NCBI GenBank assembly: GCA_950295325.1 | Contig: OX485803.1 | Span: forward strand, 52,033,554-52,097,553 | Reading direction: 5' to 3' | DNA length: 64,000 bases | Source: Polytrichum commune | Lineage: Eukaryota; Streptophyta; Polytrichopsida; Polytrichales; Polytrichaceae | Shown: piece after piece, positions 4,800 through 63,962 of the stretch | How the letters are laid out: the number at the start of each line of letters is the position of its first letter | Numbering within the stretch: the first letter of the stretch is position 1 | Translations under genes and position numbers: made by a program | The notes under the pieces: model-generated | What the model was told of the DNA's origin: nothing | Seen by the model: the letters and a program-made list of their open reading frames with translations, nothing else | Databases searched by the model: none

Positions 4800-5115
4800 A
4801 TCAAGTTTCCGAGTGGGAGTTAGGCACCTCCCTCTAGAAGATCTTTGTGTTGAAGTTAGACAATTCCAATTCGGAGATATGAATTGGAGTTAGACAACTT
4901 CAAGTAGATGGATATTATTTATCGGAGCTAGACAACTCTCATTAAATAAATCTAGTTGAAATTAGATTGTTCCAACTGAAAGAATGAATGAATCAATCAA
5001 GTTGGAGTCAAACAGTTCCAACTAGAAGAATGGATGACTGGATGGAGTTGGAATTAGGTAATACCAATTTGAAGAATGGATGAATACATCAAGTGATAAT
5101 TAGACAATTCTAGTT
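4800..5115. repeat. Degenerate tandem repeat (about 45 bp)
   Basis: Around seven units built from GGAGTTAGACAACTCCAA and AGAAGAATGGATGAAT-like words. Strongly diverged. Confidence 0.6.
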
Positions 5116-5975
5116 AGAGGAATATGATTGAGCCAAAAGATTAGAGAAGATCAAACGGTGAAATGATCTATGTATATGGATAAGAAGGCTCCAATCTAAA
5201 TTTAGCAAGAATGGAAATTTCTTAAAGAGTTTCTAAGATACTATGGATAAAGATGGATAAGACTAGGAGTGCCTTTGGGGTATAAGAGTGAGCTTGGGGG
5301 AGGAGAGAGAATCATCTTATGTCTCTCCTATGGTCAGGTAGTTTGAGCTCATAGCAATCACAATATTGAGATCAAGTTGTAGATATTTTTGTAATGTACA
5401 ATGTTTAAAAGTTCTCAATATTGGTGTCTCAGGTGCATTCATGCTTTTTGTGTTATTCTTGAGTAAAAAAGGAATGTGACAGCCCAACCTTCGTTTATCA
5501 ATAATTCAAGCTAATTTGAGAACCTCCTATCATAAGTATAGTAGTTATTTTGTTGATGTGGTTGTTATACGGATGAATAAACAAAGCTATGAGTCTATAA
5601 TTTGTATGAGTAAAGAGGCCACCTAATTGGGAAGGCAAACTCTTTGCAAATATCATTGTACATCATTTTCAACATTTTCATGTCTATAACATATGTAAAC
5701 TCTTGTTAAATCTATACATGAACCATTTGTATCAACTAAGATTGGGTATGAAGTAAATCTACACTCATGCACGAGTTTTGAACATAAGGAAATCTTTATA
5801 CATCTACACCATTTATGGTAGTGTCACATGCAACATAGTGCGATTTACCTTATTGTGGGGTGTATCCTAGGTTACACTAATGATCAGAAGCTTCATTATT
5901 AATGTCACCTCATGACATTGGTGTTCAAGTGCACTTGCTAATATCTTGGTATGAGTAAATTCAATACACCATTAA

Positions 5976-12771: not shown

Positions 12772-14354
12772 CAGTGTTCAAGATTGAAGCCCTCATATGA
12801 GTTTCATTTTGAAGGGCTCTAAAATTTGAGCCCTTCGGTTGAAGGGCTAGTTCAAATTCAAGACGTCAATTCAGTAATATAGAAATAAAATATAAAAAAC
12901 TCATATTAAACTTATGCATGATTTATATGGTGCATGCTTCCAATACAATGTGAAGAATTAAGAATCAACCATCTAACTCCACCTCTTCTAGTGATAATGC
13001 CCTACGCTTGTTGGTTCTTGTGCCAATTTTCCAAGATTCAAAAATACCATCCCAATCCATGAATTCAACTCCTAACCCATTTAGACTAACCCTCATTAAA
13101 GCATCTAGTGTGTCAAGGTTGAGTCTAGTTCTCCTTTCACTCTTAACCCAATTTTGCTTTGAAAAACCACGCTCACAAATAGCAGTGCTAGTTGGGATCA
13201 CAAGTATGGCTTGCCATAGCGACATCATAGTTGGCCAATTAATCATGAACTCCCGGTCATTGCCACAAAAAACCCAAGCTTCTTGCATACTTCGGCGTTC
13301 ACAAACAGAACATAACATCTCCACGAATTCTAGCAATTCCGCATTGCATTGATTAACAAGGTCATCGCTCCAACGGAAATGTGTCACCAACCGGTTCAAC
13401 CATTGTTCCGTTAATGTCCCTCTGTCCAATTCATCTACGGGATAGTGCTTCGGGCTAAAAAGCCGGGCCGCATTGAAAATGGACAAGTCAGGAAATCGAT
13501 CATTGAGTGAATCGATGATCTTCTGCACATACTGCCTCCCCAACATGATGCATGCCTCCAATGAGCCTCCTACGTCACACTCGGGCATGGAATCATAATG
13601 CAAGATATGCATTTTTTTCACACCCAAAACTATCAACATACAATATTTGCCCATTGGGTACCACCTCGCGGAGAAACTTTCCTAGGTGTTTGGTTGTCAT
13701 GCCAAAACTTACACCCAGATAGTGTCTACGAAACAAGCTGATTGTTACATCAATCGTAGAAGCTATGCTAGTGATATCTACAAGATCAAACTGAAACTTG
13801 CGATTGACCTTATTCAACTCTGATAATATATCAGCTAGCATGTGAATGAAAAATTGGAACCGAAGAGAAATTAGATCCTTGTACCATGTGGGTTCTTCAA
13901 CCTCCCAAATTTCTAAAATTGCAGGCATACAAAATACCAATCTCTCCATGACCAAGCCACGGGATAACCATCTCACCGAATGGATCTGTAAAGTTGCACG
14001 GGATTTCAAATCAGCACTGATTTCACATTGATTGAATCACATCACACTACAACACTGACTCAATGCTTACCAAAGAAAGGGTTGGATTCCAATCTTTTGC
14101 AAGACCTAAAAAGTTGAATTCCAAGTCAGATCGATGTTGAATGAATCATTTGCTAGGTGTTGAGGTTGTCACTGTAGCGACCTCCTCGTCACTGTAGCGC
14201 TACAGTGTTGACGGGTGTAAAAATTTTGAGGACGTCAAGTGAAGTTTTCATTTTGAGTTTGGGGTTGCATTTTGAAGGGCTGTTTTGAGAGAGGTATATT
14301 TTGAAGGGCCAAATCGCGTTTGAAGGGCATTGAAGACTTCAATCTTGAACACTG
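12772..14354 (-). mobile_element. hAT-superfamily DNA transposon with intact ends
   Basis: The left end CAGTGTTCAAGATTGAAG (12772-12789) is matched perfectly by its reverse complement at 14337-14354. The 8-bp direct duplication CCTCTACG flanks both ends (12764-12771 and 14355-14362), diagnostic of hAT insertion. GCCCTTCAAA/TTTGAAGGGC motifs recur just inside both ends, a subterminal-repeat layout used for transposase binding in hAT elements. The internal transposase is truncated and frameshifted, so the element is not autonomous. Confidence 0.93.
12965..14009 (-). pseudogene. hAT transposase remnant (ZNF862-like), frameshifted
   Basis: Two reading frames together cover the C-terminal half of an hAT transposase. 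The upstream part (14009 to about 13611) has HSVRWLSRG and helical sequence. The downstream part (about 13611-12965) has the hAT dimerisation region: LWQAILVIPTSTAICERGFS, then NWVKSERRTRL and LDALMRVSL. The frames change at a run of seven A (T7 at 13612-13618 on the + strand), so a one-base indel broke the gene. The N-terminal BED zinc finger and most of the catalytic RNase-H-like fold are absent, because the whole element is only 1,583 bp. Full-length relatives are usually 600-800 residues. No function is expected from this copy. Confidence 0.9.
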
Positions 14355-28807: not shown

Positions 28808-29552
28808 TTCCTACTATGGAGTGCAAAATGGTTTGATATCCTTGTAAAACGAGCTATTCTGGTATAATTTAGGGCTTACTACAACGGGGGTTTCTTGCTT
28901 GGGAAAGCCAAAAAGACAATGCTTAAATCAGTTGAACACCACCAACGTTTAGGTTCAAATATGTAACCACTTCAATAGATCATATATATATATGTACACT
29001 CTTTGAAATTTTGTCACAAATTGAGGTTTATCCGGTTGCCTTGAATGTTGTTTGCATGGCATTTCGATCCGTATAAATATTGGCTAATCGATTTGGTTTC
29101 TTTTCATGGATTTGTTGCACATCAATAGAAGGCCAAACCTCATGGAAGTAATTGCAATAAGCTCATCTAGAGGTCTTACATTGTTCACGGGGTTGTCACA
29201 CTCATAGTCCGCCAAGAGCCTAAGGCTAGTGTAAATGCAGCCTACAAAATTTGTGACTTGGCCTATAAAATTTTGAAAGCGTAGGACAAAGAGCCTATGG
29301 ACAATTTAAAAACATAGGATATCAACCTATGTGATAAAAAACATGTAGGAAATTTTGCCTACAAAGTTTTTAAAAGAGAGGATTTTAGCCATTCATCCTT
29401 CTTCAAATTGGGAAATTAGTTGACCTAAGTACATATCTTTAGGCTAATACTCGGGGCTCTTGGGTGGCACATAGACGGATATCAATAATAGCCCTAACTC
29501 CCTTCCTGCTAATCTTTACAAATACCATTCATCACAACTCCTCTCTCATCAG

Positions 29553-29554
<2 letters not shown>

Positions 29555-29593
<39 letters not shown>
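29555..29593. repeat. (CT)n microsatellite
   Basis: About 19 CT units directly abutting the hAT relic at 29594. Confidence 0.95.
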
Positions 29594-29596
<3 letters not shown>

Positions 29597-29917
29597 AAAC
29601 TGAAATTTCCTAACCTACTAACGCTTGCCGTCATTGCAAGATGCCAATGTGTTAGTACTGCTACTTGTGAGAGAGCTTTCTCTGTGCAAAATAACATCAA
29701 GCAGAAGAAAAGGAATCGAATGACAACAACACACTTGGATAGTGTGATGCGGGTGGCGATTGAAGGACCAACCAAAAATTTTGAGTTTATTTTGGAGGAA
29801 GCTATATCTTTGTGGAAGGATTCAAGAAAGTTTCGATTCTTGTTTACTAATCCTGAGAAATATCTTGCAGGAAGAGTAGAGGTTGAATTAGAAGATGGTG
29901 AGGACTTTCACCCTTAA
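29594..29917 (+). pseudogene. hAT transposase C-terminal fragment
   Basis: About 107 codons with the hAT dimerisation signature VSTATCERAFSVQNNIK, RNRM and LDSVMRVAIEGP, ending in an acidic tail (ELEDGEDFHP) and stop. Upstream, the coding sequence is cut off by a (CT)n tract at 29555-29593 and no earlier transposase domain is visible. GCCTAC/GTAGGC-type motifs are scattered on both sides (about 29240-29370 and 30060-30240), as in hAT subterminal regions, but I could not find convincing ends or an 8-bp duplication. Sequence differs from the copy at 13 kb, so it is a separate hAT lineage. Confidence 0.85.
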
Positions 29918-41885: not shown

Positions 41886-41985
41886 CATGTGAAAATATAT
41901 ATATGTCGCAGTAAGTATATATGTTGATGTTGTTGCTTGTGGTGGTGCAGAGGGTAGAAATAAGTGAATAGGGAAGGAAAGCAAG

Positions 41986-44413
41986 ATGAGCCAACTGACG
42001 GCCGCCCGAGTTCCAGTGGGTTTTAGATTTCACCCCACTGATGAAGAATTGGTGGGTTACTACCTCCCCAAGAAAGTCGGTGCAATCAAGATTGATTTGG
42101 ACCTCATCCGCGACTTGGATCTATACAAGCTTGAGCCATGGGACCTGCAAGGTCAGCAACCGAAACTCTTCCTTGCAAAACAGTACATGCATCCAGGATC
42201 ATCATGTGTAGGCTATTCTGCAGATCATCCGGACAGACCCCCCCCCCAAAAAGAGTATTATAATCCATACCTGCAAGATGACGGAACTTGAAAATTTACA
42301 TGAATGATGACGATGATGATGATGATAGAACCAGCCGCATGCTTAAAATCCAAAAGCTCGGCTAGGATTCAGTAGACTTGGGCACATGAAATCCTGTCGA
42401 ATTATTTTTGAGTGATCAATGATCATCCCAGTACTACTGCAGGCATTCTCCTAGTTGGTTCAAAACACCCTCAGAAACCGAAAGGTAGGATTTCATTGTG
42501 TTAACGATCGGACTTGCACATTGCCTGTGGACATGTATTGCAACTTATAATAGGCACCATGAGCCCAATTGGTTCGTTGTGATCGGTTGTTAGGCTTGCA
42601 GGATTTCCACTAACGAGTTGGATTGTATGAACGACGTCACAGAGCTGTGCAAGATTCAAGCGGACACAAATGAGAAGCAAACGGACTACTACTTCTTCAG
42701 CCGGAAGGACAAGAAGTACCCGACTGGCAATCGCGCCAATCGGGCTACTACCAAAGGGTTTTGGAAAGCCACAGGGCGTGACAAACCCATCTACACCAAA
42801 CTGCAGACCTTGATTGGCATGCGTAAGACGCTCGTTTTCTACGAAGGCCGTGCCCCCCACGGCGTCAAGACGGACTGGATCATGCACGAGTTTCGCCTTG
42901 ACGATGGCCCTGGTCGACCGGCTCATGTAAGACTTGATCCCCTCCTCTCCTCTCCTCTCCTCACATCCCACCAATTCATTCTCTCTTCGGTGCATGCCTG
43001 CCCTCTTAATCACATAACCCAAGTAGCAACAATATTACAGACCCTTATTGTTATAAGTTAACTCCACGTAAAAAAAAACCCCAAGTGGCAAAGATCCCAC
43101 AGGCACGCTTATAAACCCACATCATAACTCAAGTAGCCAAAAGCCCACAAGCACTTATAAGTTAACCCACATCGAAACCGAAACCCAAGTAGCTAGAATC
43201 CCGCAGTCTCTTACACGTTTACTCACATAAAACCCAAGTAGCAACAATCCCACAGGCACTTGTAAGTTAAATCGCATAGGATCCAAGTAGCAAGAATCCC
43301 ACATGCACTCATAAGTTAACTCATAAAATCCAAGTAGCAAGAATCTTACAGGTACTTATAAGTTAACTCATGTAAAATCCAAGTAGCAAGAATCCCGCAG
43401 GAACTTATATGTTGCTAACCCACATAAATGCCGAGTAGCAAGATCTCACAGGCCTTACACGTTAACCTACATAGAACCCAAGTAGTCACTTATACGTTAA
43501 CCCGCTTAAATGCCATATAGCCTCAAGGTTTCAGAGGCTGTACCGAATGGGTGAACTCCAACCTATCTTACAATAAGGCTTGCATCATGAGAAGTAGAGG
43601 CGGCGATGATGAGAGGACTGTTGGTTTTGGAATTGCTTGGTGTTTGTTGCATGTCTGATAAATAATTCATGCTTCGGCGGTTTCCAGGAGGACGGTGGCT
43701 GGGTGGTGTGCCGAGTGTTCAAGAAGAACAAGAATTTCAAGATGAAGATGCAAGAGAGGGCATGCTCATTCGAGGAGCAGATAGGTCTGTTGCCGGAGAT
43801 GAGTTCGCCTGACATCCTTTCAGGAGGCGGTGGCAGCCATCAACATCATCATCATCATCACAACAACAACAACAACAACAGCAGCAGCAGCAGAAGCTAC
43901 ACATTCCCCAACAATCATCATCACTACGGCGTCAAACAGGAAGTGATTAATCTGGACGAGTATAACCCCTGCGGCCACGGCCAGTACTTCAATTCTCTCG
44001 CACAGCTTGGCATGAACAAGCTTGCATCTACAGAGCGCCATTCTATGCCGTCCGCCTCCGAGTGCCGGTCCCTCATCATCAAGAAAGACGACTACTTGGT
44101 CGACCCTTACCCCGAAAACTCATTGAGTGTGTTGGAGGAGCCGCAGAGCAGCGTAAACAACAACATCAATAACAATGAGGAGGCTATCTCGGGGCTGGAG
44201 AATTTGGACTGGAATGCTCTATACGAGGCTCCTGGGAAAGAGTTTCGGTCAAGTACTGCACAGCTTATTATACCCGGCACTACTGCTACTGCGAAGAGTG
44301 AGCCGTTGGTGGGGGGTGACATGAGCATCCTATTGCAGCTCAAGAGGCAAAACTCGGACATTCTCTCTTCGTTGGACCTTTGGAACTACACTCAGGTGGC
44401 CCAGCAGAAGTAG
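41986..44413 (+). CDS. NAC-domain transcription factor, VND/NST/SMB-like; three coding exons
   Basis: Predicted nuclear DNA-binding transcription factor of 391 residues. Exons are 41986-42151, 42643-42926 and 43688-44413; all introns are GT-AG and the phases (1, then 0) join cleanly to 1,176 nt. NAC subdomain A is residues 12-27 (GFRFHP, DEEL). Residues 36-55 carry the IDLD...[11 protein letters not shown] signature typical of the VND/NST/SMB clade. Subdomain C/D is KDKKYPTG (77-84) and WKATGRDK (96-103). Then come [10 protein letters not shown] (113-122), DWIMHE (133-138) and [10 protein letters not shown] (154-163). Intron 1 lies exactly after EPWDLQ, as is usual in the family. The C-terminal half has His, Asn and Ser runs (about 197-222) and ends in an acidic/aromatic LDLWNY-type motif, a likely activation region. 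In this clade such proteins switch on secondary-wall, water-conducting-cell or root-cap programmes; that role is inferred. The loop before YYFF is about three residues longer than in typical VND proteins. Clade assignment is moderate; the NAC call is near certain. Confidence 0.93.
43010..43525. repeat. Minisatellite (about 50-bp unit) in NAC intron 2
   Basis: Around ten imperfect units, each with the core CCAAGTAGCAAGAATCCC, then ACAGGCACTTATAAGTTAAC and a CACATAAAA-like spacer. The array fills most of the 761-bp intron between exons 2 and 3. Unit lengths vary from about 45 to 58 bp and no unit is perfectly conserved, so the array is old or evolving fast. Confidence 0.85.
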
Positions 44414-45309: not shown

Positions 45310-47185
45310 CTATGTTGCAGTGTCTCGCAGCTCTTCCAACAGTTTCCCCAGTTGATTGACCTGAGAGGTTGCAAAAAAAGAAAAGAAAAAGAAAAAAGAG
45401 GTTTATGTTGCAAGTATGACATCAGAGACTTGATTTGGTTTCCTGTATTTGTTTCTCTGGCAGTTTACAAAACTGTGGTATGTCAAGCAGGGATCAGCTC
45501 AGATGGTTGTTGAGTTATAAGAACACTTGTTGTCTTCTGGTGTCTGTCAATTCTGAGCATCAGTCTTCGAGGTGCCAGTCTATTTATCAAAGTGCAGGGT
45601 TTGAATATTTTTGAGGTTGTTTTTTTTTGTTTTTTTTTTCCCTGCATTTATAAGCACATGACTGACATTCTAGTTGTACATAAAGAAGGGCTTGAATTAA
45701 AGGCACGAGGTGCTTCACTAAGACTACATGCAACATGTAGACTCTCTGTGCAAGGAGATAAGCTACAAGAGGGAGAAGTTTGATATGGACCTTGGCAGTG
45801 GAGACTGCCTTCTGCCTCTCCAAGGTCAAAATACGGGAGTGCATTTGGGCTTCGACCTCCAGCACTTTCATGTTCAATTCTGCAATCAGGGCGTCCTTCT
45901 CCTCCAACGCAGCATTTGTCTTCTTTTCTTGAGTCTGTCCGAAAACATGGTCATACTTTTGTGAGCATCTTCTTGGCATACATTCACTATCCTTCGGTCC
46001 AGTTTTTCAAAAATGCCCATATTGTACATAGACCAGATGTAGACAAAGGATGTCTGTCACAGCTAATTGTTGGTTCCAAATTCTAAGTAAAATCCAGTCC
46101 CAAGTTTTGCTTGTATTGGGAATAGCTCATTTGGCGATTGCCATGATCAAGTTATTTGGACAAGGCTTTAGAAAACTCTACGAGCTGATGTGATGGAGAA
46201 CCGCAGGGATCTTGTGCATCTCATGACCTTACGACCAATGAAGACCCGCAAAAACTCGATCAAAGTAATCTGAAGTAGAAAGCATGAAAGCTTTCTCATT
46301 GTGCTGTTTAGCGACTTACTAAACACCGTACACAAAACTGAAATAAAAAGAAAGAACGAGTAAATTCAGGAATACACTGCAAACCTTGAAGGAAAATGAA
46401 GGCGAAGGAACTATCAACTCCCCTTTCTGTTGCTTTCTCTACATGGCTTGATACTGAATCAAACGCTTTCACTTGTGACTTTGCGACTGAGATTCTGAGA
46501 AGAGAGTGTTCATTATGTTTACTGTGTCTGAAGCCAATGTTTGTTTGGTGTGACTTCCATTACAGGATGTTGATCTCCCTTCACTTTCATGTATGACAGA
46601 TCATGATGAGGATGGAGTGCAATTTCTGGCATTGTAATGCAAAGTACCATGTGCTTAACTACGTACACTGCCCCCCAGGACACCTTTTACCACAGAACTG
46701 ACCATCTCACAACTTGAGGTGCCCGCCCCTGACATGAAGGATACAAAAGAAATTAAATTGTTTGCTTTCGGTGACTATGGTCACTGCCTTTCTTAAAAAT
46801 CAATTAGTGAATCAATCAATTAATCTAACCTCCATAAATTTGGCTGTTTTCTCAGATTGAGCTCGCAGTGTAGCCTCAGCTGCCGATTCTGCTTCAGCCA
46901 TTTTCTGTCATGCACAAACCCATGGAGCCAATGTTCACCTCCTGACTGACGTGGGACCACTGAATGATGAGAAGTAGACTAAAATAAAATACAGTTGGAA
47001 TCTGATCTCTGATATTATTATTGTGGTGGTGCAGATATTAGTCTGCAGGTTCATGTGAGAGAGGTAAGGAAATGTTCTTGGTGAGACTCTTCTTTTATAG
47101 CTTGAGGAACTGTAAAGAATCCACGACATCATCTGCTATACTTAACAACTTTCAGAAGGGGTATTACAAGTTCCAAAGTAAGAGA

Positions 47186-47216
<31 letters not shown>

Positions 47217-50200
47217 CCTTCTGAAGAGCTTTGAGCTCCTCTAAAGCCTGATCTCGTTGAACCACAACGTTTCTCTCTTTGCCTTCATACAGGCTCTTCA
47301 CACGGCTGATCTCTTCCTCCACATACCTGCCATCCCAGCGCCTCTCCCATCATCATGAATATGATGAAGATTATATTGAAAAGTATTCTCTGACAATTGA
47401 AACGCTTAAATTCCTTGCCAACAAACATACAAGGCCCGGGCTGGCAATTCTCCCCTTTCTAATTCACTTCGTATACTTCTGATGTGTTGATGATTTGTTA
47501 TGTCCCAAAGAGAGGCAACATGTTTGGAAACATGGCATCGAGAGGAATCCATTGATACAATTGTGTCTAGATTAGAGTAAGTTTGCACTTCCATATTTGT
47601 CATGTTTAGATTTATTTTATTTTTTTCATCAAAAACATGGGTCACCATCCAAGGTACTATTGAGTTTCACTTTTGATAAGTTTTTAGTCTTACATCATTT
47701 TATAATGTGAAAGTGGCTCCAACATAATGCTTCTTAAGAATGGTTTAGCATTTCCAAAGTAAGTTTTAAAAAACAAAGAGAGGGGCAACTCTCTGGGAGG
47801 CACAAAATGGAATTGGACAACCCTCCTCTCCTAGAGATATGAGGATTTGATCCTTCTTATTAGGGCTCAATTTAGGAACACATCACTATGGGGATCGTGT
47901 GGTCTTACCATAGTTTGGTACCCAACCACTAGATGGTTACAAAAGATGTGGATATGGATTTAGAATTTACTGCCTTCATGATAGATCACCGAATCATCTT
48001 GTGACCAGGAAGCAAGGTCCAAACTGTGGTACTACCACATGTTCCCGTAGTGCTTGTCACTCGAGTGCCACTTGGGAGCTCCTTGGGAGATCAAACTAAT
48101 GAGGTAGGTAATGGCCTAGGGGATGGATTCTTTATTGGAAACCTAAATGACATGCGTGGGTCACTATGAAATTAAACCCCCTATACACAAGAATTTCATA
48201 GAGAAAAACAAAAGTATACATTCTAACAGCATGCTAGAAAATTGGCTCATATATTTATACTAATATTTTCAATATCATGTAATAAATGCCTCCGCTACAT
48301 ATACAAAATATAGATCATGAATTAAATAGGCCTTATTACATATGGAATCCACTTTCACTTTCCAATGAGAAAGTCATATGAATTGTTTTTTCATTCATAG
48401 CATGTAATTCAAGAATTGCATCAAATTGTCAAAAAAGACAAGAACACAATAACTTAAACATAATCCAAAGAGCGAAACTCAAGGGAGCCCATGATGAGCA
48501 CTTCAAGAGCCTTCAATTTGTAAAAACCTAAAACCCAAATGCAAATCATAACAAGAACGGACATGGTAGTCATTAAGGACTACTACCACATGACAAACAC
48601 AAATTGGATGAAGTTAACACATCTATAGTCAAACCTTAGGGCCCTCTATTGTACATCTACCTTTACGTGCAAAAGATAAATCAATGGGCATTTTAAATGT
48701 ACAAACTAAAGAAAAAGAATACCTCTCCCTTTTGTATACTATGTATACTAATGCCTCAAATAATAACTCCTTCCTACATTCACATTAGCACATACATGGT
48801 ATGAAGAGTCCACCCCTGGGAGTAATGGTGGCCATAATGCTTTTGCATACTCCATTGGGATTTCTTCAAATACATGTAAATATGTACATACAATTTTGAT
48901 TTTTTTAGTTTAATTTTTTTTTTTTCCAGCCTGCCATGTCTAGCCGATGCCATAATTGATGTGATGGTCAATCGCTTGGTCGACTATCACATCTATTATG
49001 ACACCCATGCCATGGACATAGGTTCCGAAGAAGCAAGTGTACTAGCATCAACCTATGTGAGCCTTGTCCTAGTGCACATAAATTGCAGCAATACGATTCA
49101 TGTGATGTGTCCAGTAAAAACCTACCCCCTATAGGTTTATGGTTGATTCATCCCAACATAATCCCGTTTTCTCATGAAATCCAGTTAGGAGTTTCTCATG
49201 CTAAATTTTGTGGCCAATTCATGCTAAATTCTCATGCTAAGGGGAAAAAATTCTCTAAGCCATAAGGAATTGCCAACATGTTTACTCTCAACTGACATGA
49301 TTAGCATGGATCCGTGGCCCTTGGACACTGCCTCTGTGCAATGTGTTCTTTGTACTAGACAATATACACAATACCACTGAGAGAGATTATATGTGGGACT
49401 AGTCACTGAACTCTGTACTCGAGTTTCAAAGGAACGACCGCCCTGGTGGCCAAGCATACACCTCTTATTCTTCCATGAGGGATCCCAGTTAGTAAAAGGT
49501 GATATGCAATAACCCATCTTATAATTATTATAACACAATGCAATATTGAGCCACGACAATCCGGTGAATGAAAGTTTAGGAGTGATGACCTGAGCATGGA
49601 ATCCACATCATTAACTTTCTGTTGGAGAGCTTTGCATGCATTCTCTGCTGCAGTTTTTGCGCCTTTCACAATCTTGAGTTCCATCGCCATATCAGAAATA
49701 ATAGCCTCTTGGTCTGTCAGCTCACTTTGCAGTGCATGATTCTGCAATACAGGATGCATGATATATCTTCATATTAAGAGGACGCGATTAACGTATAGGA
49801 GGAGGACAAAGCAAGGAGCTCACCATCCAAAAGTGATAATTCGGTGATAAGTAAATCGTAACATTACTCAGCGATGTGGGCCTTTGGAACATAACATGCG
49901 GATGTCGGGAGCTCAGTTAAAATCTAAGTCTCTTTGCACAACTTTCCGAGCATCTGACTGTTGTATTCCAAGGGTCCATTGAATGAGCACTAAGTACTGA
50001 GTAGTGTTATGATGGGAGCTTTATAGGAAGAGGACAAAATCATTAAAAATAACTCAGGTGATGCTTGTAGTCTATTAGTTTGGACCAAAGCTTTAAAAGA
50101 TGTAGAGGAGAGGAGGCCTTCGGCTACGAGAAAGTCATGGACAACTTCGTTGTGCATTGGAAAGCCAATAATTCCCTCTTTTTTCGGGTAGATTAGTTGT

Positions 50201-53200
50201 GGGTGTCATTGTACATAGCATTCTTCAGGAGCTTAACAATGTTCACTTTCTAATTTGGTACCACACATTGCTCGTGCCGGTGTCAAGCACAGGCTAGGTA
50301 ATAGGGTTCTTTGTAATAAATGACAACCAACGTAATTAAGCCTACCGGTTTCTTGGATATTTGGTGAACTTCTCCCATCTACCTAGTTAGAACCCGACTG
50401 AAAATTTATAAGTATGCGCCATTTATTTGCAATTGAGTCGAGAATCTTTGCAACAAGAAACTGGCCGCACTGAACATGATAGGTCAATTGAAGAATGTTC
50501 CGTATCTTTCTTGAGATTGTCTAGCTCCACCATATACAGCCTAGAGAGAACTTCCCCTTTCTTTGGTGTGGGTCACAGTAGTCTTGGATGTTTCATGTTT
50601 TTATATATAATAAACAAGAATAATGAAGTGGGGCATTGCAACGACAACAGCCCCTGTACCTTGGACACTAAAGGCTCATTTTCCCTAGTACGCTGACAGG
50701 CTCTTTGGTCCGTGATTTAATGACAAAACTAGTGAGTGAACCTTTCAACATTGGGAATTTTCGGAAAGGCCAGAACAATCTGAAGAATAAAGGGTCCAAG
50801 AAACATACGGATTGCGCTTCATTTGACACCTGCATAGTGAGTAGGTTGGAAGTGATGTTTACCAACTGTAGGCCTTATCTCTTAGATTATAAAGACGACT
50901 ATTTGTCTTGCCTGGTCAATTTCCTCTTGTAAACGTTGTTGCCAATCAGATTCAAGGACTTTGGCTTTGGTGATGGATTCTTGGGCTACCCCCTTCGCCT
51001 CAACAAGCTCGCTTTTGAGCTGTCGAATAGTCTCGTTTTGACTGTCCAACATCTTACTTTTCACCTGCATCAACATGTGCATCGTGCTGAATTCGGCTCC
51101 ACAGTACACTAAATATGGGTATTCAGTGTTACTCACGCTTTGGAGTTACACAATGCTACATCTTTTTACTACTGAATGTAGCTTTTAACCCAAGTAAAGA
51201 TGTTAGTGCTCTATGCTGTCCAAACAACCAGTGTGACCTTTGTTGGCAAGAAGTGAGATATACAGTAAATGGTTATAGCATTGCATAATCCTGAATTGTA
51301 ACTGACACTAAATACAATATTTAGTGGAGTGTATTTTCCCTGAGAATGTCTAAATGTGACTAGCTTGTTAAACTACGACCAGGATAAGCTCCACAATGAT
51401 ATATCTGCTGGGGGGGGGACAGACTCAGGACTAAAACACATTGAGAAAGATAAACAATTTCTCACAGTGAGAATTTGTAACCGGGAAAACTAGCAGAGGT
51501 GAATCCATGGACACTGCGACGTAAGTTAATCTCATATTATCATTTTTCCGGTGAGGAATAAATGCGGATCGAAATGCACCATGGCACAAATTTCGTTTTG
51601 AAAATTTTACAACGGTCATTGCCCATTAAAACTGTCCGTTATGGTACGATCTGAGGTTGAATATAGAACCTGTAAGGTTTATGATTCTTAACCAGAAGAT
51701 ACAACCCACATGAGGTACCTACCCTGACGACGTCCTCAGTCTCTTGAAGTTTTTGCATCAATGCCATAACTTCGGAGGCCGCCTTCTTGTTTTCAACTTT
51801 AAGAGCAGACAACTGCGCCCGTGCAGCTTTCTCGAAGGATTTCTGCTCTCTTTCGGAGACGCATGACACACTTGCAAGTTCACGTCGAAGTGCATCCACT
51901 TCCAAAGCCTTCTCTTCTGCAACTTGTGTCTTCTCACGTAACTCTGTGACCACCCCTCGGAGGTGCTCTACCTCCTAATAACCCACCATGGAAATTGTTT
52001 GCAAGGATTGATAAGCAAGTGGAAAAACATATTCTATAATCATTATAGAGATATCCTTTAACCGAATGAGGTTTCTTGTCGGGGGAGTCATTCGGATTCA
52101 TTCCCTTATGATTTTGAATTGGTTCTTTTGCGTGCTTTTTAACTAATTTTTTCTGAACATGTGTAGTGCATGCTCAGAGGTAATGCTTGAATTTGAATTT
52201 GAATGAAGAGCAACCTATTTCTGTTTGTTGATGGCCAAACTCATTCCAACGTCTCTTGGCATGCCAAAATGAATTTGACCCTCAATGAACCAATATAATA
52301 TATTAGAATGTTCTTCCTTCAAACCTCCACACTAGCTCCAAGCATGCAACACAAATTTACCAAACATGGGAGGCATTCCATGCAAAACAATCAACTACTG
52401 ACCAAAAGTGATGTTGAGGTAGAGGATAACGCTAATGTGGTGGGAATATGAGGTTCTTAAATATCATGTGCACAAGATTGAGCTCATCATGACTGATAAT
52501 TGATTGTTGCACATATTCTAAAATGACTTGACAAATTAATGATGCTATGATAGAAACCTCATTAAAAATAAAAATAAACCACAACTTGATGAATGGATAT
52601 AACAAAACGTTGGTTTTGCTCGGGAGCAAGCATGAATGAAGAGCCTCTTCGTCCGCAGGTTACTACCCCATTTTGGGGGTGTTCATAAAATCACTTATTG
52701 ATTATAGGGATCATCGTTCATGTAAACTGGAATAATTGTAGGGAGATATTTCTTAAAAACATCTTGGTGAATAATCATCCCCAACTTAACATAACTGAGC
52801 CCTCACTGCTACAAATAAACCAAGATTTATGCCAACATAATTCACTTGAGATCATGATTCAAGTGGATGGCACAATCAAAACAAACACCATGCTTTGACC
52901 TATGCATTAGGGCATCGTCATATTGGGAAGAGAATTGGGTTATATTATGAAGTACTCCATCAAATTGCATACTCAATGAGGATAGGTTGGACCTTCACAT
53001 GTACATGAAGAATGGCATTAAACATTTAAAAGTGAGCTCAATTCCAATGTGCATTTGCTAGCTACCAAAGGGAGTCTCACCTTCTCACTAATGGCAAGGC
53101 GATCCAAATCATGTTGCACTTTTTGCAACCTTAGTTTCTGCATACCCATGATTCCAACTCTTAGTCAACATATTAGGTCCATTCCACAGGGTTTGTCCAC

Positions 53201-56200
53201 ATTACCACATATTTTCCTTGGTGGTAATTAGATTGCCAAATGTTCCTTGTGAGAATGTAGCTTTAAAATTCAAGCTTCCATCAAACAACGTTTTGATGTC
53301 TAGGGAGCAACTATTTGTAGCACCCATAGGGATCAACTTCTTTGGAGTTTGGTTTGGAACTATTTAAGAAACGTTATTTGGGAGTTTCTTTCACATAATG
53401 AGCATTTATAAGACTACGAGTTTTAAGAAATTTTATAAATTTTCAAGGAAGTAAAAATATTATTAAAAAAAACCAGGGTGTAGGGTTAACCCTTATTTTA
53501 AAAAAATTCTTTTGAGTATTTTTAAAAATGATATATGAAATGGTATAAATGGTGCAAATGGATTCCTCTCAATGCATATGCTCTTTTCAAGCACCTTCCT
53601 CCTCTTTGGGATGTACCTAATCATCAATTCACTAGGAACATGAGAAATGACGAAAAAACAATTGATCTAAATTGGAAAGTTGCCACCCACAGCATTAACG
53701 TATAAGATGCAAATAAACCTGAGCACGGATAACATCAGTTAATTCAGTGATCAATTCCTCCGCTCCTCTCTCCTGAATCACAAACAATAAACCATATCAT
53801 AAGATCCGGGATACTCCCTCTACAATATCACATACAAAACAATCCATAGGATTGGCCTTCCATACAAAAATAAACTAAATCTGTCCAAGTGCATTCCCAG
53901 TGACCACGCAAACTGTCACTCAATCATTGTGTGCATAAGTTTGAAACCAATAAAGAAATTTCGGTTTATAAAATCAAGGTAAGAGTAAAGGAGCTACACC
54001 TTTTGTTGCAACTAGTCTGGACAAGAGTCGAGTGGATCACATCAATTTTCAAATCCCTTAAGTTAGAACTAGAGTGGAGGATGTACGATCAACACAAACG
54101 CAAACAATAGTAGCATAGTGTCACATGACTTGGAGTGATTCATAAATTATTCGATGAGCGACCGTGACAAGTGGCACGATGAGAGTGATTCACACCAATG
54201 ATGACCGTGGCCCCACATGACATACAACCAAGATTCTTGACATTTATTGGACTCCATGATGCTAAACACCAAAATATCGCATGACACATGGCTTCGTGGG
54301 ATGTGCCCACCAAGGACAATAGATTAACTAGTTATACTATCGACTTCACAACACACCCTCTTTCTAGGACCTAAAAATTTCATGTGGTATACATCGGGCA
54401 CACGCCAATTGTTTGGGAGCAAAATTCTCGTGGGTTTTAGGATATAATTTGATTCACATTGATTCTAAAGTTTTGGAGGCTTAGAAACTTTGTAGTGTTA
54501 TCTATACTATTTGAGCAAAAGGTGTCGTGTGTTGGTTTCAGAAATATGGCCCCAAAATGATTTGGTCAACTTGGGGAACCAACCTTTTCTCTGATTGATT
54601 CGACTGTTGCCTTCAGTTGTGTGACTTCCTTTTCCATGTCGTCACGAAATTTCTTCATGTTTTGTAGATTTGTTGCATTGTCTGCCAGTTGCACACATAC
54701 ATTGAATGCAAAATAAAAGAAAACAAAGAACAACCTCATGCAAATATTCAAGATATGCAAAAGCTCCCCAGAAACTAGACTCGCTAGGTCTCTGACAACA
54801 ATATTAGGTGCTCGCCATTTCATTGTCCCAAATAATAAAATGAAGTGGCACTCAATGTTATTCCCCTCAAACCCTACCAGCTCCTCTAAATTTGGACTCC
54901 TCCTCATGCAAGTTACTCTTTGGTCAGTTTGAGTGGAGTAGGATGACTTGACCTTGAACAACCACAGATGGGACGAGAAAGATGGACCAAAACCATTCAG
55001 CAAGGTATTATGGACTCATGCAAAGATCACATGAACCAAAACAAACGAAACTTGATCAATCCGCCTTCAACTATGAGAGTTTTTTTAACCACTTCGACTC
55101 TTCTTGGAGAACTAACAACTTATCCTACTTTCATGGAGTCCCACTCCAAGATTTTGTGGAATATCAAATCAAGCAATGTTGGATCATTTTAACCATGTTG
55201 ACGGGGCACCTCGTCACCTTTCTTGAGGTTATCTAGTTACACCGCAAGTGCCCAAGAAAGCCGCCCAGTGGCTTTGTAGTCGTCGTTGTTTTTTCTTAGT
55301 ATTCTTCTTCTACAACAATAGTGGAATGAAAGAAGATAGCATTACACTTTCTCTCCAACTCCACCCGAAAAAAGTGCCCTCAAATAAACAGCAGAATTGC
55401 ACGTGTTCATTTCATTATACACTACAGCTAGAATCGATGGTGTTGTGGCACCTTGAAGGGACTGTCGGAGCTCAGTTTGTGTAAGCAAAAGCTTCGATTG
55501 CAACTCCTCCCGAACATGTGCCATGTCCTTTTCAGCTTTCTCTCGCCAGAACACCTCTAAAGCTGCCGACTCCCGCTCCAGCTTACTTCTCACCTCTAAC
55601 TCCTTTTCCCTGCACAAATGAGGAACAAGGTTGTATGGACAAAGTATGGACAATTTTTGGGGGGTTTAGATTAACCCTCCCTCTTCATGCTTCTTAATTA
55701 ATATCATGAAGCAATGATTTGTAACGACACAAAGAGAAGCAACATGCATGGTTGGCAAGAGGGCATTGAGAGGAATCCATTGATTTTCGCCTGAATGAGA
55801 AATTAAAGCTTAGTTTACACATTCAATCACTATATTTGTTAATCGGAGACTTTGAAAAGTCTCAAAATAAATGCAAATGGTTTAATATTTGGTCCAATTT
55901 CTTATTCTGATGACATGTATTTGTGCCAAATTGGTTAGTGCCACCCATGTGAATTGGTTTATTAAGTCACATTGAATATATATTTGTGTTTTCCTTGTTC
56001 TTTATTTGAAAACCATGTCCCTAAGTAGTCTCAAAATCATGAAAAAGTCTCCAATTACCGAATATAGTGATATTCATATATTGATCTTAGAACTATGTTC
56101 ACATGGGTTTCAAGTGGAGTTGCAAGTCCCACTCATGTTAGCAAGTTCCAATATGGAGGCAAAGTCTGGACCTTCGAGCCTTAACGAACCATGAGGATGT

Positions 56201-59200
56201 GATTGATTATCAGTAAGCTCAGGTCTTGATTATTTTTTTGCGAAAATGTTCACAGGACGTGTGTTGAGAGTTGGGTCTAACTTTTTGCTCGACCCAACTC
56301 TCAACGCATGTCCCAAGCCTCACCTCCAAAAAGTGTTGCCATGTAGGCATCCGTGTCATGCCTTGGGACTTAAGACTTGGGACCATGTGTGAAGTGGTAC
56401 GTCCCAAACTCCATGCTCTCGATGGTGAAGATTGCACGGATTGACCTCAAGTGACTTGGGATCCCATGTGAACTTACCTTCAAAAGCAATATTTCAAAAG
56501 TAAACGTATGGGTCATTGTGCAGACACCCTACGTATTTATTCTCGTTTAAAAGAGAATGCTGATGCCAAAAATGTCTTATCAACTCTGAGTCGTGTCCTA
56601 AAGATTTTGGCCTTTGCGGGTGTTATAGATAATTGCCATCTTGGGCATCACATATATGAGATATGGTTTTCAAGCATCATTGTGGTAAAGTATGTAACAT
56701 ACATGCCACATTCAATCAAGTCATGATACATCCTCTAGTGGACAAGCATCACGAGCTAGGATTGCTCCTAAAGAGATGTAGGCCTTATGTGGTCAATCTT
56801 TTCAATCAAACACCTATATTTGGGTGGCACATGGCAAGGCTTGTAGTCATGAACATAAAAAAAAAATTAAAAAATTAAAAAATTAAAACATGTTTTAATG
56901 GGAGTAGACTATGTGCTTAGAATGTAGACATCATTTTAGGTTGAATAGTTATTAATGCAAATGTGAGAGCCCACATGATCTCTTAAAGAGAAAAAAAAGA
57001 ATCTCAATTTTTACTATTAAATCTTTTGCATCTCAACTCCAATTCCAAAACCTGAATTGACAATCTTTACGATTCATAATTGATAACCAGATCCCCACAG
57101 CTTAAAAGTATGTCTTCAAGACTCACAATTTGGAGTTTTTATACTCTTGTAGCTCCTTGTGGACCCACTCAAGCTCTTTTGTAAGCCAATTGCATTCCTC
57201 AAGCCTCTTCTTTTCTTGATGCGCACATTTTTCCTGAACAACAGAGTACCAAAGCCCACAGAAAACTCAAGTTAGATACAAGGAAACAAGTCTGCAAATA
57301 AAAATGTAGTGACAAGTATTAGATGGCATGCTTTCATACAGGCCACTTGGCAATCTTATATTGCTTGGAAAGGAATCCACAGTTCGGAATCCAAAAACAT
57401 GAACCTCCTGCACCTTGCAGTAAATCCAACTTCACATGTACCGCATTCATGTCAACCCCCAACATCTAATAAACTAACAAGGTTTTTCTTTGGCCAAAGA
57501 CTTCTAGGTTCCCAGGGAGGTCACTAATTGTAAGATATTAAGAACCACGTGCAAAAAAAATATAGGGTGGAATAAACTCCAAAGAAGTAAAATTCATAAA
57601 ACAATGAACATACACCTAGGATACTAGAAATTCATTTTGAGACCTTATTACTTATATTTCAAGAATATTTATCAAATATATGAAACATCCCTAGATTATG
57701 CACATTGCTTGCTTCATAGGCCCTTAAGTTACCCCTTTATCGCATGTGATTCATATCCCAAAAAGGGAGCTATCTCTCACCCCCCCCCCCTCCCCAAAGG
57801 AGCTTAGTAATGTTATGTACAAACATGTAGGCAAAAAAAAGTTACATTTTTTCATCATGAGTTTTAAGAAATAAAAATGAGCACAAATCGATTTGAAAGT
57901 GGGAGGCCAATACATTACCAGCTCCTCCTCTGCAATTTTGAGTTTAGTGCGTTGCTCATCCAATGTTTTCGCCAACACTGTTGACGTCTCACTCACCCTC
58001 TCCATCTCACACATTGCATCTCCTAGTGCCTTCTCCGTCGTCTACAATGAGGTTAAATTTTACAATGATATATAGTCTACCCCTTTTCGAAACATATTTT
58101 GATCATCCAAAGCTCCCAAGCACTTCATATTTAATTTAAAATTCTAGCCACGAGCATCTTTGTAAGGTTTGGTGTTGCTTATAGGTAAATATGGCAATGT
58201 GAAGACAGTGACCATTTATGAATTTTGAGCCTATCATTCTGACAAAATTAATACATGAATTAAGTACATCCGGACTTTAAGGAATTTGAAACATACATGA
58301 CATGAGGTCAACCTGGCGTGCATTTTTGGCAAGGTCCAAGGCCTCCTTCAAGGCCAAAACCTCAAAATTCATTGTTGACAACTTAGCTTCTGCCTTCAAC
58401 CGAATGGTTGCTGCAATGTGATTTCGATCTGCAAGCAACCGCTTCTCCGCCACCGCAACAATGTCCCTCAATTTCTGAACCTCTTCTTCGTAATCCTACA
58501 GTAACCCAACTCAAGAATTTTCCTTACTTCACTAAAATCTTGGACAAAAGTCATTGAAACTCATTAAAAACGTCACATCCACATCAACTCAATACCATAG
58601 TAGACTTATCCATAAATTCTCTCAAATTTCTTGGTTTGATTGGGAGCTTTGGCTCATTTTGGACATTTGATCATGTATAAGGAGTGTTCAAGTGGTGTCG
58701 GAACCCCAATTCTTTTTGTAAAACAGAGAGAATGACTTTGGCCAAAAGATGGCTATATACAAATGAACTCCTTATCAAACTTTGAGTAATAAAACCAAGA
58801 AGGTGTTGACCATTCATAATGATGATGCATCCAATTTACCAACAAATATTGCAAGTTGTCAAGTCAAAATGCAAGTGATTAGGGTCTAATGTTGAGTCAG
58901 TTGTTGATACATACCTACCTTTGAGGGTTTGGCATATTTTTTCAATGCTCACCAAAGGTTTAGGAAATGATTCATTCCACATTGATTCAGCTCATTTCAA
59001 CCTTTTAGGTGGGTTAGAACTTTGGAATATAGATTACAAAAAACTTAGCCCTGTGTTTGGTACTCATTCAATGTTGTCAAAGTTTGACAAGATTGAGTGA
59101 ATGTGAAATGAATGTTGATGATACATGAATTTAAAGGATTCTGATGATGATTTTACATTGAAGGAACCCACTTACAGGATAGTCACCTTAAGCTTCAATT

Positions 59201-62200
59201 CTAGATTCGCAATAGTCATCGACTTCCTTTCATCCTCCAATTGAAAGCGCTCCCTTTCACTGCACAGAATTTGCTTCGATGTTGCCACTTCACCTTCCAA
59301 CACTTTCCGGTCTTCAATCAGCCTAAAAATCTCAGTATCTTTCTTTGCAAGCTCCACTTTTGCATTTTGATTCTTGCTTTCCATTTCAGCTATTGTGGAG
59401 CCTTCAATTAGCTTCCGCGAGAAAGATTCATCAGCTTTTCGACTCATGCTCGCCACCTCCAATTGCAGGTTGCTCACCTTGTCATCATCAACATTTTGAT
59501 ATTGAGTATTAAAAACCGTGACCCATCATCTCATAATTCAAGTGAATAGCATTTCATATTGATAGATACCCTTCAGGATTTGATATCTTCTTTTTTGTGC
59601 GAATCCAACATTTAGCTAATAATTCCTTCAACATTGATTCAACTCAAAATTTAACTGAATGGGTGTTGAAACTTCTATTTTAAAATAAATAAAATATTAA
59701 AATTGCAACCTTACGTTTGGTAGGCATTACTTCAATTATGTTGGAATTTGATATGATTGAATCAATGCAAAAATTTGCAAATAAAGTCGTACTAAGTTAG
59801 CTTTCAAACAACCATATTAATTTATTCATTTTTAGAGCAAGTGAAGAATTAGAAACCTCATGGCACAACCGCTCCAGAACAGGTTCAGGAACAGAATCCG
59901 TTTGAGCACCCGCCTCTTTGTATGTGCGGATTGGATCCTTTTGCACCTACATTCAAGCCTTCCAACCATTTCATCAACAAACAAACATCATGACAAACCT
60001 CTATGTTCAATCACATCAAACTATCAGTATCTCATTTTTGGTAAGCATTAATTCAATGTTGATCACAAAAACATGCAAAGCCTACACAAAAATCCTCGAC
60101 AGTTCATGATTGACTATCATTGCGGATGTCATCAACAACTAAACATCACAACCTCTATATTTATATAGCAATACCGGTTTCACATTGATTCAACGACATC
60201 AAACTATAACCTCACTACAACATTGAACCTATGCCTACAAACAGAGGGTTGCAATTTTAATCGTTTGTTTCTTTATTGTATTATTGCAGTCTATCTATAA
60301 GGCTCAATTAAGTTAAATCAATGTTGAGTGAATCAATACACTACATATGATATTTAGTGTCACTTACTATTTGGAACTATGCAACGCTATAATTGATTAT
60401 TGTACATCTCATTTTTTACCAACAAAGGTTGAATTGGTTGTTTGGACATTATAGAACATTAACATCTCTACTTGCTAAAAATTACATTAATAATAATAAA
60501 AAGATATATGAATGTGTAACTCCAAATAGTAAGTGACAATAAATATCATATTCCGTGTAGCTAAATGTTGAGTTGGGCTAGCAAATAAATATCAAACCCC
60601 CTGAAGCATAGGTATGTATCAACACTGACTCCACATTAACCTCTATCCACTTTCATTTTGAGACTTGATGAGCGCATGCAACATTCAAATTAACACCTTC
60701 CAACAAAGAAAAAATTCACCAATGTGAATGTCAACAATGAATATTTCGTGGCATAGATTCAGCCACATCAACCTAAAACCTCACTCCAACATCAAACCAA
60801 TGTCTACAAACCCAGGTTACGATTTTAATCTTCTGTTTCTAAATGCTATAGTTGCGATCTACCAAAATGGAAGTTGAATGATGAGTTGAATCAATCCAAA
60901 AAAAAACCGAACCCTGAAGGAAGGGTTGAACAATAACCACTATAATCTATTCACTTGCATGATGAACCTTGAAGAGCTCATTCGACTTTCATAAACCTTC
61001 CATCAAAGAGAGCAAGGACGATTTCAGACACCAATGTTGCTTTGTGATGCAACTCAACAGCCAGAGGCCACATCACATTCATTTGTATGTCCCTGATAAT
61101 GCGTATATCAATCTCCATTTTGCCAATTCGTCGCAAAATTATGAAAAACTCACATAAACAAAAACCCTTGACAGCTTAGTCGGTTGAAGAGTGCCTACCG
61201 GTGTGGTGGAGTTTTTCGAATTCTTGCGGCCCACAAACCGAACATACCGGTTTCGGTGGGTGGGAAGAGCACCAGATGCAGCAACAACAACACTACTCTC
61301 AGAAGATCGGTCATCAGTGGCCGACGAGTCGCCTGCAACATCATCCTCCGCTAATTTTCTCCGAGGACTACTAATTTGCCCTCTTGAGGATAATTCCAAC
61401 CCACTCGCTTTTGCAAGTTGGCCCACAAGATCCAGCACCCGCACTTCCAACCTCCCTAACCGTGCTTCATGGTTATCATTCTCCCCTTGCTTTTTTTTCC
61501 TCGCACCATCAACCTCGCCGTCCGTCATCATGTCCGCACCATAATGCGGGCCATTATACGTCCCCTTTCCCATCTGCTGAGGGTAATGTGTCTGCAATAC
61601 TGGTCCACCTTGACAATTTGCAAACTGGGCATTCTTCGAATTAGGATGAATCCATTGAGTTTGGGATGATGGCCCAGACATGACTTCACCACATTGCGGT
61701 TTTTGAGGACCTCTCTGGGGTCTTTCCTTGGAAGGGCTTTTCCACCGGGGTTTATGAGGCTCCGGTACTTGATGAGGGTGGTGACTTCGTTTCTTTGCAA
61801 CAGGGTAAGGGTTAGGATACAATGGTGTCACACCATAACTATCCTGATACTGATGCTGTTCAACCCTAATCTGCTCCCTGGGATTTTGGGGGGACGGTGT
61901 TGAAGGGATTTCATATGGAGTGGGGGAGGTGGTGACATTATTGTTATTATTAACATGATTAGGGTTGTAAAAGACAGGGGGATGGTTGGGTGGGTAGCTA
62001 TGTTGCAATGCCCAAATGGGTAGTGGAGGCACCGACACCATCTCCAATGTTGATGATGGTGTCGCGCTGCTTGTCTGATCCATGGGTTTAAATTTGTTGT
62101 TTCCGTCCAAGCTTCGAAGGCACGGAACCACGGATCGAAGTGTCGAGTGGTATGTGCTTGCTTCGCACACCGGGTTCGTGTAACCACCATGTTGGAACAC

Positions 62201-63962
62201 TACTTCTTCGAGGTGGAGACAGCCTGCGAGCACCCATAATTCACACAGATATTCCACCAGGTTGCCTTGCAATTCGAGGTGCTGCAATGCGTACCTGAAT
62301 GAAATGTAATGAAGTGAAATTGATCATAAAGTCTGGGACTCCAAAAGGCTTATGGGACTTAAAGTACATCAAGATGGTGTCAAAAAGGTTATTTCACTAG
62401 AGTAGCGGAATGCAGAAGCCTCCGTGACATAGAGGCTAATATCAACTTGATGTTCCAATTAGAAGAAAGGCTTAAGACTCCCTAGTACTACGTTCTCAAA
62501 TACTGAAAGGAACTTATCTCCAATGGAGTCAACAAATTATTGAATCAAGTCATCAAATCCATCCCTTACTGCAATTTAGTTGCATGATGATGTCATATAA
62601 AATTTCCCCTCTGGAAGTTAAGTAGATCACCACATCCAGCTGACAAAAGATCAAAAGCAATCAAGTCAGCTAATACAAGTGCCAAGTGTAGCAAACCTCA
62701 TCGCAGGAGGCGATGGCAATCACGAGGAAGATTTTATGAAATGTATTGGAACTAAATGGGGTCACATAAATTCCCTCAGAGGCAAAGTAGTTGCACTCAA
62801 ATCGACACACAATTTTACATGTGATTTTGGAGGTTTTAGAGTCTCCACAGGACACAAAATATTATGTGTTTCCACCGACAGCTTGTTGCAGAGGAGAAAC
62901 GGGTCCAATAAGCCTTGAATCTCGATCTACCATAGCTGATTGATGATGAATGAGGGAGTCATGAAAGTCAAAGAAATGAAATAAATGAGCTGCGCTCTCA
63001 CACTAGCCCGTGCTGCCTCCTTTTTACAATGTGCAAACATTTTAGTCAAACCCAGCTGGCTATTACCATCAATTCAGTTGTTGAGTAAACATTGTAAGGA
63101 GGAAAATTACCAAATAAAAAAATAAAAAATATTGTTCAAAACACACTGCAGACGGAAAAAAAAGACGGAGGAGACGGAAAAAGCCTTCATCTATGATGAG
63201 GTTTTGGACCATTTTGACAGGATATGGAGAGCCAATAATCTTCTCTAAGTTACTGATGTTCAAACTCTTAACATTTTTTGGAACATCCACACGCTACTGT
63301 TGACTCAGTTGATCATGCTTAGGTTTCTCTTTTATTTTTGTGGTGTGAGATGGTTCCACCATGTGCACCCCAGAGAGTATCCCGGGTCTCTGTTTTAGGT
63401 CCCAATGGCCTTGTCTGGTATTTTGGCAATGAAATAAATTGTTTCCTTTGTCTCAACACAAAAACTGTAAAATATCAAAAAAAATCCCAAGGATATAAAT
63501 TAACACACATATAGTCACGAAAGTGATGAGTAATCATGACAGATGAGCACACTGATTGAAGCACCAGATAAAAATATATCCTAATTAGAAATAGAGGACT
63601 AGGTACTCACTGGGGTCCGTGGACAGCCGACAATCCACCAAGCAGGGCAATCCGGTTGTGGGAAAGGATGAGATGTTGGAGAGCCACCAACCCATGCAAG
63701 CCAGTGATTTCCCGGATCTTGTTACTCGCAAGATTGAGGACCCGGAGGTTTTTGAGGTGAGAAATACCCTCCATTCGTGCAATGTTGTTGGACGACAGGT
63801 TGAGTGTCACAAGAAGGCTCAACACCTCCAAGCCCTCGATACGTTTGATCTGGTTGTCATGCAAATTCAGCGTCTGGAGGTTGACAAATTTGGAGAGACC
63901 CACGATCGCATTCGGGGACTGTAGAGAAGCTCCAAGCGCATATATCTCCTTGATCTCATGAT
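45310..63962 (-). CDS. LRRCC1: LRRCC1/VFL1-like centriole/basal-body protein, 18 exons, 5' end outside window
   Basis: Exons in transcript order: 63962-63611, 62294-61154, 59946-59857, 59477-59187, 58495-58313, 58041-57919, 57233-57127, 55609-55452, 54681-54584, 53772-53719, 53137-53081, 51974-51723, 51064-50912, 49741-49590, 47326-47218, 46904-46830, 45934-45791, 45360-45310 (TAG). Every junction keeps frame, giving about 1,196 codons (human LRRCC1 is about 1,030). Order: SDS22-type LRRs, an LRR cap with NPVC and LRSLD, a proline-rich linker, then coiled coil to the end. The LRR-cap-coiled-coil layout and the cap match LRRCC1 and Chlamydomonas VFL1, which sit in the centriole or basal body and are needed for correct flagella. 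In a plant it would act in basal bodies of motile sperm (inference). Introns hold MITEs. The intron after 50912 appears to start with GC. The donor of the 61154 exon could instead be at 61199. At least one upstream exon is missing. Confidence 0.8.
47187..47213. repeat. (CA)n microsatellite next to a splice donor
   Basis: Lies 4 bases inside the intron after the exon ending at 47218; on the coding strand the intron begins GTAGGTGTGTG and continues as TG repeats. Confidence 0.95.
49858..50011. mobile_element. Foldback MITE, family C, in an LRRCC1-like intron
   Basis: Begins CGTAACATTACTCAGCGATG and ends TGAGTAGTGTTATG. Inner arms CCTTTGGAACATAACATGCG and CTGTTGTATTCCAAGGG pair. Core AATCTAAGTCTCTTTGCACA is shared with 37279-37416. 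Confidence 0.8.
51107..51326. mobile_element. MITE family B copy in an LRRCC1-like intron
   Basis: 220 bp between the exons at 51723-51974 and 50912-51064. Begins CACTAAATATGGGTATTCAG and ends with the inverted CTAAATACAATATTTAGTG. Interior GTCCAAACAACCAGTG matches the family. Confidence 0.82.
56240..56485. repeat. Foldback-like repeat in an LRRCC1-like intron
   Basis: Contains the inverted pair GTGTTGAGAGTTGGGTC / GACCCAACTCTCAACGC around 56260-56310, then words resembling MITE family A (CATGTAGGCATCCGTGTCATG, TGTGTGAAGTGG). Likely a diverged transposon; limits uncertain. Confidence 0.5.
60339..60559. mobile_element. MITE family B copy in an LRRCC1-like intron
   Basis: Left CATATGATATTTAGTGTCAC, right GTGACAATAAATATCATATTC, about 25 bp of inverted repeat. 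Interior GTTGTTTGGACATTATAGAA. Lies between two halves of a local duplication (60180-60338 and 60755-60900). Confidence 0.85.
61154..62294 (-). other. Exon with last LRR, LRR cap and long proline-rich linker
   Basis: A single 1,141-nt exon (380 codons). It begins with the final LRR and a C-terminal LRR cap (GYTNPVCE..., then LRSLDGNN). It continues into about 300 residues of low-complexity, Pro-, His-, Gln-, Asn- and Ser-rich sequence, with a basic patch (KKRSHHPH, KPRWKSPSKERP) and a short amphipathic segment (EARLGRLEVRVLDLVGQL). The acceptor is TTCATTCAG and the donor ...TTTAT|GTGAGT, with ACCG|GTAGGC as alternative. Animal LRRCC1 proteins, as far as I know, have no comparable linker, so this looks lineage-specific. 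Confidence 0.75.
63611..63962 (-). other. LRR exon of the LRRCC1-like gene
   Basis: Encodes about five 22-residue SDS22-like leucine-rich repeats, for example LQTLNLHDNQIKRIEGL, LVTLNLSSNNIARMEGI, LRVLNLASNKIREITGL and LQHLILSHNRIALLGGL, ending in AVHGPQ. The acceptor is the AG at 63964-63963 (TATATGTCCAG on the - strand) and the exon enters in phase 1. The donor is CCCA|GTGAGT, leaving phase 2. The next exon completes the Gln codon and continues YALQHLELQGN, another LRR. This is the leftmost recoverable part of the protein; the start codon is not in the window. Confidence 0.85.

Follow-up and report, generated by a model that had tools for sequence, protein, structure and literature searches.

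This locus raises a two-part question: does a series of minus-strand exons in a 64,000-nucleotide stretch of plant DNA (the window, by which we mean the whole stretch analysed) encode one protein of the centriolar LRRCC1/VFL1 type, and in what kind of plant? On the sequence evidence set out below, we consider it very probable (roughly 0.92) that the gene is a single-copy bryophyte ortholog of LRRCC1/VFL1 with a predicted role at the sperm basal body.

Structure of the gene

With splice sites chosen by context on the minus strand, the 18 exons joined in phase from 63962 to 45310 into a single open frame of 1,180 codons closed by a TAG at 45310, in agreement with the number of exons, the phase and both ends given in the first-pass annotation, and we infer that the exons are spliced in this way (Table 1). 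The statement that most exons are shorter than 160 nt also held (13 of 18). The other two frames of the joined exons contained 43 and 80 stops, and when same-length pieces of the locus were joined at random 2,000 times, no join had fewer than 35 stops (mean 64). All introns but one were GT-AG (16 of 17), the remaining one, after exon 13, being GC-AG.

This GC donor and the weak donor of exon 17 (AAG/GTCCAT) would fit a decayed copy or pseudogene, or two adjacent genes, one for LRRs and one for a coiled coil, read as one. Against these readings, which we regard as very improbable, stand 1,180 codons without a stop or frameshift, a phase kept across 17 introns, a GC content of 0.58/0.36/0.51 at codon positions 1/2/3 versus 0.37 in introns, and the collinearity of both the LRR and the coiled-coil parts with a single human protein.

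Exon 1 of the window begins at an acceptor in mid-codon, so the gene is incomplete within the window, and this exon is probably the second coding exon. Examination of the next 10 kb placed a candidate ATG exon 761 nt upstream of it, which likely belongs to the gene and would extend the model to 19 exons and lengthen the protein to some 1,203 residues. Because this exon was chosen by eye among several candidate donors, the assignment is likely but short of proof; because the frame is open upstream of the candidate ATG, the start codon is unproven and more upstream exons are possible. Open frames resembling group II intron reverse transcriptases/maturases of mitochondrial type were also seen by eye upstream of the gene on contig 1 (stretch L002, ~4900-5600), possibly a mitochondrial insert.

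Table 1. Exons of the LRRCC1/VFL1-type gene model (window positions, except for the candidate 5′ exon, given on contig 1, C1; a slash marks a splice boundary)
Feature	Position	Strand	Content
Candidate 5′ exon (likely)	C1:52098277-52098343	-	MARSYGVPGVVLDVRAQDPDKP + split codon; ATG frame reaching right-phase donor
Exon 1	63611..63962	-	SDS22-type LRRs; acceptor CCAG/AT, donor CCA/GTGAGT
Exon 2	61199..62294	-	last LRR, NPVC cap, Pro-rich linker
Exon 3	59857..59946	-	coiled-coil region begins
Exon 4	59187..59477	-	coiled coil
Exon 5	58313..58495	-	coiled coil
Exon 6	57919..58041	-	coiled coil
Exon 7	57127..57233	-	coiled coil
Exon 8	55452..55609	-	coiled coil
Exon 9	54584..54681	-	coiled coil
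Exon 10	53719..53772	-	coiled coil
Exon 11	53081..53137	-	coiled coil
Exon 12	51723..51974	-	coiled coil
Exon 13	50912..51064	-	coiled coil; begins VKSKMLDSQNETIRQLK, facing human IKCKIIDDQTETIRKLK; GC donor; unspliced tblastn E 0.002
Exon 14	49590..49741	-	coiled coil
Exon 15	47218..47326	-	coiled coil; unspliced tblastn E 0.034
Exon 16	46830..46904	-	coiled coil
Exon 17	45791..45934	-	coiled coil; tblastn match in order, chance-level E 4.3
Exon 18	45310..45360	-	VNQLGKLLEELRDTAT + stop TAG; aligned near human LRRCC1 C-terminal end

Domain architecture of the protein

The spliced protein matched LRR families only in Pfam (LRR_4, 7.7e-16; LRR_8; LRR_9), in keeping with the SDS22-type LRRs claimed for it. 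These are followed by the NPVC cap, a Pro-rich linker of 301 residues with 36 Pro, and a coiled coil that runs to the C-terminus, which is the domain order of LRRCC1/VFL1. The long C-terminal coiled coil of the earlier description was recovered as residues 483-1180, the last 698 of the protein; this segment contains 3 Pro, and its hydrophobic residues recur with a period of 3.52, at a power of 0.80 where none of 200 shuffles exceeded 0.48. Chlamydomonas VFL1 reportedly has an LRR plus coiled-coil layout as well. Human LRRCC1 (CLERC) shares the LRRs, the NPVC cap, a disordered linker and a coiled coil to the C-terminus, but the length and Pro content of the window protein's linker and a coiled-coil identity of about 24% set the two apart. 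Passages of PMC8983040 describe the disordered linker and following coiled coil of human LRRCC1 and name Chlamydomonas VFL1 as its ortholog.

Comparison with human LRRCC1

As the LRRs alone left the family undecided, human LRRCC1 was used as the comparator, in the form of a reconstructed sequence rather than a database record, which was checked against published oligonucleotides and the end of an antibody fragment. PMC8983040 describes an LRRCC1 antibody fragment that ends at residue 1032 and prints the sequences of two siRNA targets and of four PCR primers for LRRCC1. The reconstructed protein is 1,032 residues long, matching the fragment end, and all six oligonucleotides translated in their best frame to it, five fully and si1 at 6 of 7 positions; because two of the primers overlap, the oligonucleotides cover five places. 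Among these are EKDGDD, encoded by a printed siRNA target and located directly before NPVC, and CKIIDDQT, encoded by a primer and located in the coiled coil opposite exon 13.

Alignment to the reconstructed LRRCC1 gave 30% identity over 253 positions from the LRRs through the cap into the first part of the linker (E 2e-28) and 24% over 459 for the coiled coil (E 3e-9), both E values referring to a search space of one sequence. The coiled-coil alignment stopped 4 residues before the end of the window protein and 3 before that of human LRRCC1, and without composition correction it became a single alignment of 522-1176 with human 375-1029. Its score was 336; the reversed sequence gave 185, and two stretches taken from centriolin gave 188 and 221. 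When the human LRRCC1 coiled coil was shuffled or block-permuted (200 times each), the maxima were 260 (28-residue blocks), 303 (70-residue blocks), 215 (local) and 209 (heptad-keeping). Together these values indicate collinearity beyond the generic likeness of coiled coils. A phmmer comparison of the coiled coil alone with LRRCC1 did not reach significance (E 3.5 when scaled to the size of PDB).

Centriolin and CEP97 are centrosomal proteins that likewise have SDS22-type LRRs, and membership of another LRR-coiled-coil family of similar layout (centriolin, CEP97, DRC3 or a plant SDS22-like family) is the alternative that the LRR part brings up. This part scored 86.6 bits with LRRCC1, 64.5 with CEP97 and 45.7 with centriolin, all as reconstructed sequences, those of centriolin (CNTRL) and CEP97 being used without a check. 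LRRs of this kind also match many proteins: 238 PDB sequences were found at E up to 0.01, with SDS22, internalins, DRC3 and LRGUK among the best 60, and more SDS22-like LRRs occur elsewhere in the genome. The two centrosomal proteins resemble the window protein in the LRR part but mismatch it in the last LRR and cap, which, again with the reconstructed sequences, scored 106 with LRRCC1 versus 37 (centriolin) and 41 (CEP97). The window protein carries the human-LRRCC1-type pattern NPVC....Y........P.LR.LD, in line with the cap claimed at first pass. The last LRR and cap had no significant match among 177,635 PDB sequences, SDS22 and DRC3 included (best E 0.25), and the coiled coil had none in PDB either. 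With a cap covered by no other genome match and a C-terminal half collinear with LRRCC1, another family is improbable, if slightly less so than a composite or decayed gene.

Searches of the window and genome

Unspliced tblastn of the reconstructed human LRRCC1 against the window returned 16 matches at E up to 10, of which 10 fell on model exons and 6 elsewhere. The five best lay in order on exons 1 (twice), 2, 13 and 15 (E 1e-14 to 0.034), and the best match off the gene had E 0.29. Matches on exons 5 (0.86) and 17 were in order at chance level, while those on exons 4 and 14 were out of order; 8 of the 18 exons had any match, and for exons 4, 5, 14 and 17 no match was better than E 0.38.

The genome searched comprised 408 Mb in 64 contigs, contig 1 being 77.9 Mb. 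The LRR domain of the reconstructed human LRRCC1 placed the window gene first of 7 matches (4.5e-12; next 1.6e-7) in this one search direction, with 150 of 629 candidates scored and a match that spans the LRRs (38-132) without the cap. Conversely queried with the 187-residue LRR-cap part of the window protein, the genome gave 21 matches, two at the gene itself (1.6e-66 and 8.1e-43) and the others at 2.9e-6 or weaker; none of the matches elsewhere among these 21 extended past residue 129 of the query, and the ranking was unchanged among loci compared directly. The first rank of the window gene, together with the cap and the collinearity, supports the LRRCC1/VFL1 identity proposed in the first-pass annotation. 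No second ortholog was found in the viral contig and prokaryotic genome contig collections scanned, and neither Rfam nor a tRNA scan returned anything for the window.

The host as a probable bryophyte with swimming sperm

The LEAFY DNA-binding domain had six matches in the genome, pairing into three genes, one with KPKMRHYVHCY and VGAWRQACY and two with KPKMRDYVHCY and VGAWCQACY. LEAFY types are said to be told apart by residues 312 and 345, and by these residues the genes presumably include both type I and type II. Sections of PMC6588583 place both types together in the mosses Tetraphis, Andreaea, Sphagnum, Takakia and Polytrichum commune and in the liverwort Plagiochila. This co-occurrence therefore makes it very likely that the genome is that of a bryophyte, most likely an early-diverging moss. 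A flowering-plant host was considered and is ruled out by the same co-occurrence.

SAS-6 had one match in the genome (2.1e-19) and the radial-spoke family five, four of which lie in profile order on contig 1 (best 2.6e-38) and are taken as one gene; the fifth, on contig 5, is weak (7.8e-4) and has an internal stop. The SAS-6 and radial-spoke matches indicate that centriole and axoneme genes are kept in this genome. Bryophytes have motile sperm, the spermatozoid bearing two flagella whose basal bodies lie on a multilayered structure (passages of PMC9516144), and many flagellar genes were lost in Gnetum, conifers and angiosperms (passages of PMC9023351). The earlier proposal of a plant with flagellated sperm is thus borne out by the LEAFY, SAS-6 and radial-spoke genes, but the surprise attached to it is not, as centriole genes are expected in a bryophyte: given a host with swimming sperm, SAS-6 and radial-spoke genes, an LRRCC1/VFL1 gene is expected as well. 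Such a gene is unremarkable in a bryophyte.

Proposed role at sperm basal bodies

Moss centrioles form de novo in the cells that give rise to sperm, without an old centriole as template. It is conceivable, at somewhat less than even odds in our estimate, that mosses retain the VFL1/LRRCC1 asymmetry system despite this mode of formation, and the gene offers a way into the question of how basal bodies that form de novo acquire polarity.

According to passages of PMC8983040, VFL1 and LRRCC1 localise mainly to one side of the centriole's distal part; in the presence of motile cilia, the position of centrioles and their rotational polarity depend on VFL1-type proteins; LRRCC1 is needed for cilium assembly and C2CD3 recruitment; and an asymmetric distal location, with basal-body number and position disturbed on loss, is reported for VFL1 and, in part, for the planarian, Xenopus and human proteins. 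Chlamydomonas VFL1 is located at the acorn filament in a passage of PMC9010356. Orthology with VFL1/LRRCC1 would imply the same role in moss spermatids. By analogy, the protein may sit on one flank of sperm-cell basal bodies at their distal end, where its LRR head and long coiled coil would help to build an asymmetric acorn-like structure; this structure might in turn determine how the two basal bodies are rotated, docked and positioned with respect to the cell's microtubule band, and the gene would be used only during motile sperm formation.

The locus documents the retention of the acorn-linked protein in a land plant with swimming sperm. Its 18-exon model (19 if the probable 5′ exon is counted) describes a diverged coiled-coil gene of a sort that can escape similarity searches. 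In open-licence full texts we found no co-mention of VFL1 with Physcomitr, of LRRCC1 with 'land plants' or of LRRCC1 with spermatogenous, and a single one of VFL1 with 'land plants', in a Paramecium paper; a prior plant publication is possible.

Neighbouring features

A NAC transcription-factor gene of about three exons lies at 41968-44413 (+), convergent with the LRRCC1 gene, and its NAM domain reached E 1.2e-40 in Pfam on a rough hand-made join; this neighbour is consistent with a land plant. Its span includes a repeat array at 43181-43485 with a period of about 49 bases. Reading frames at 12965-13681 (-) and 29513-29917 (+) encode hAT transposase dimerisation domains (2.1e-6 and 1.2e-7, respectively), and a minisatellite at 2674-3060 repeats a 31-base unit 13 times.
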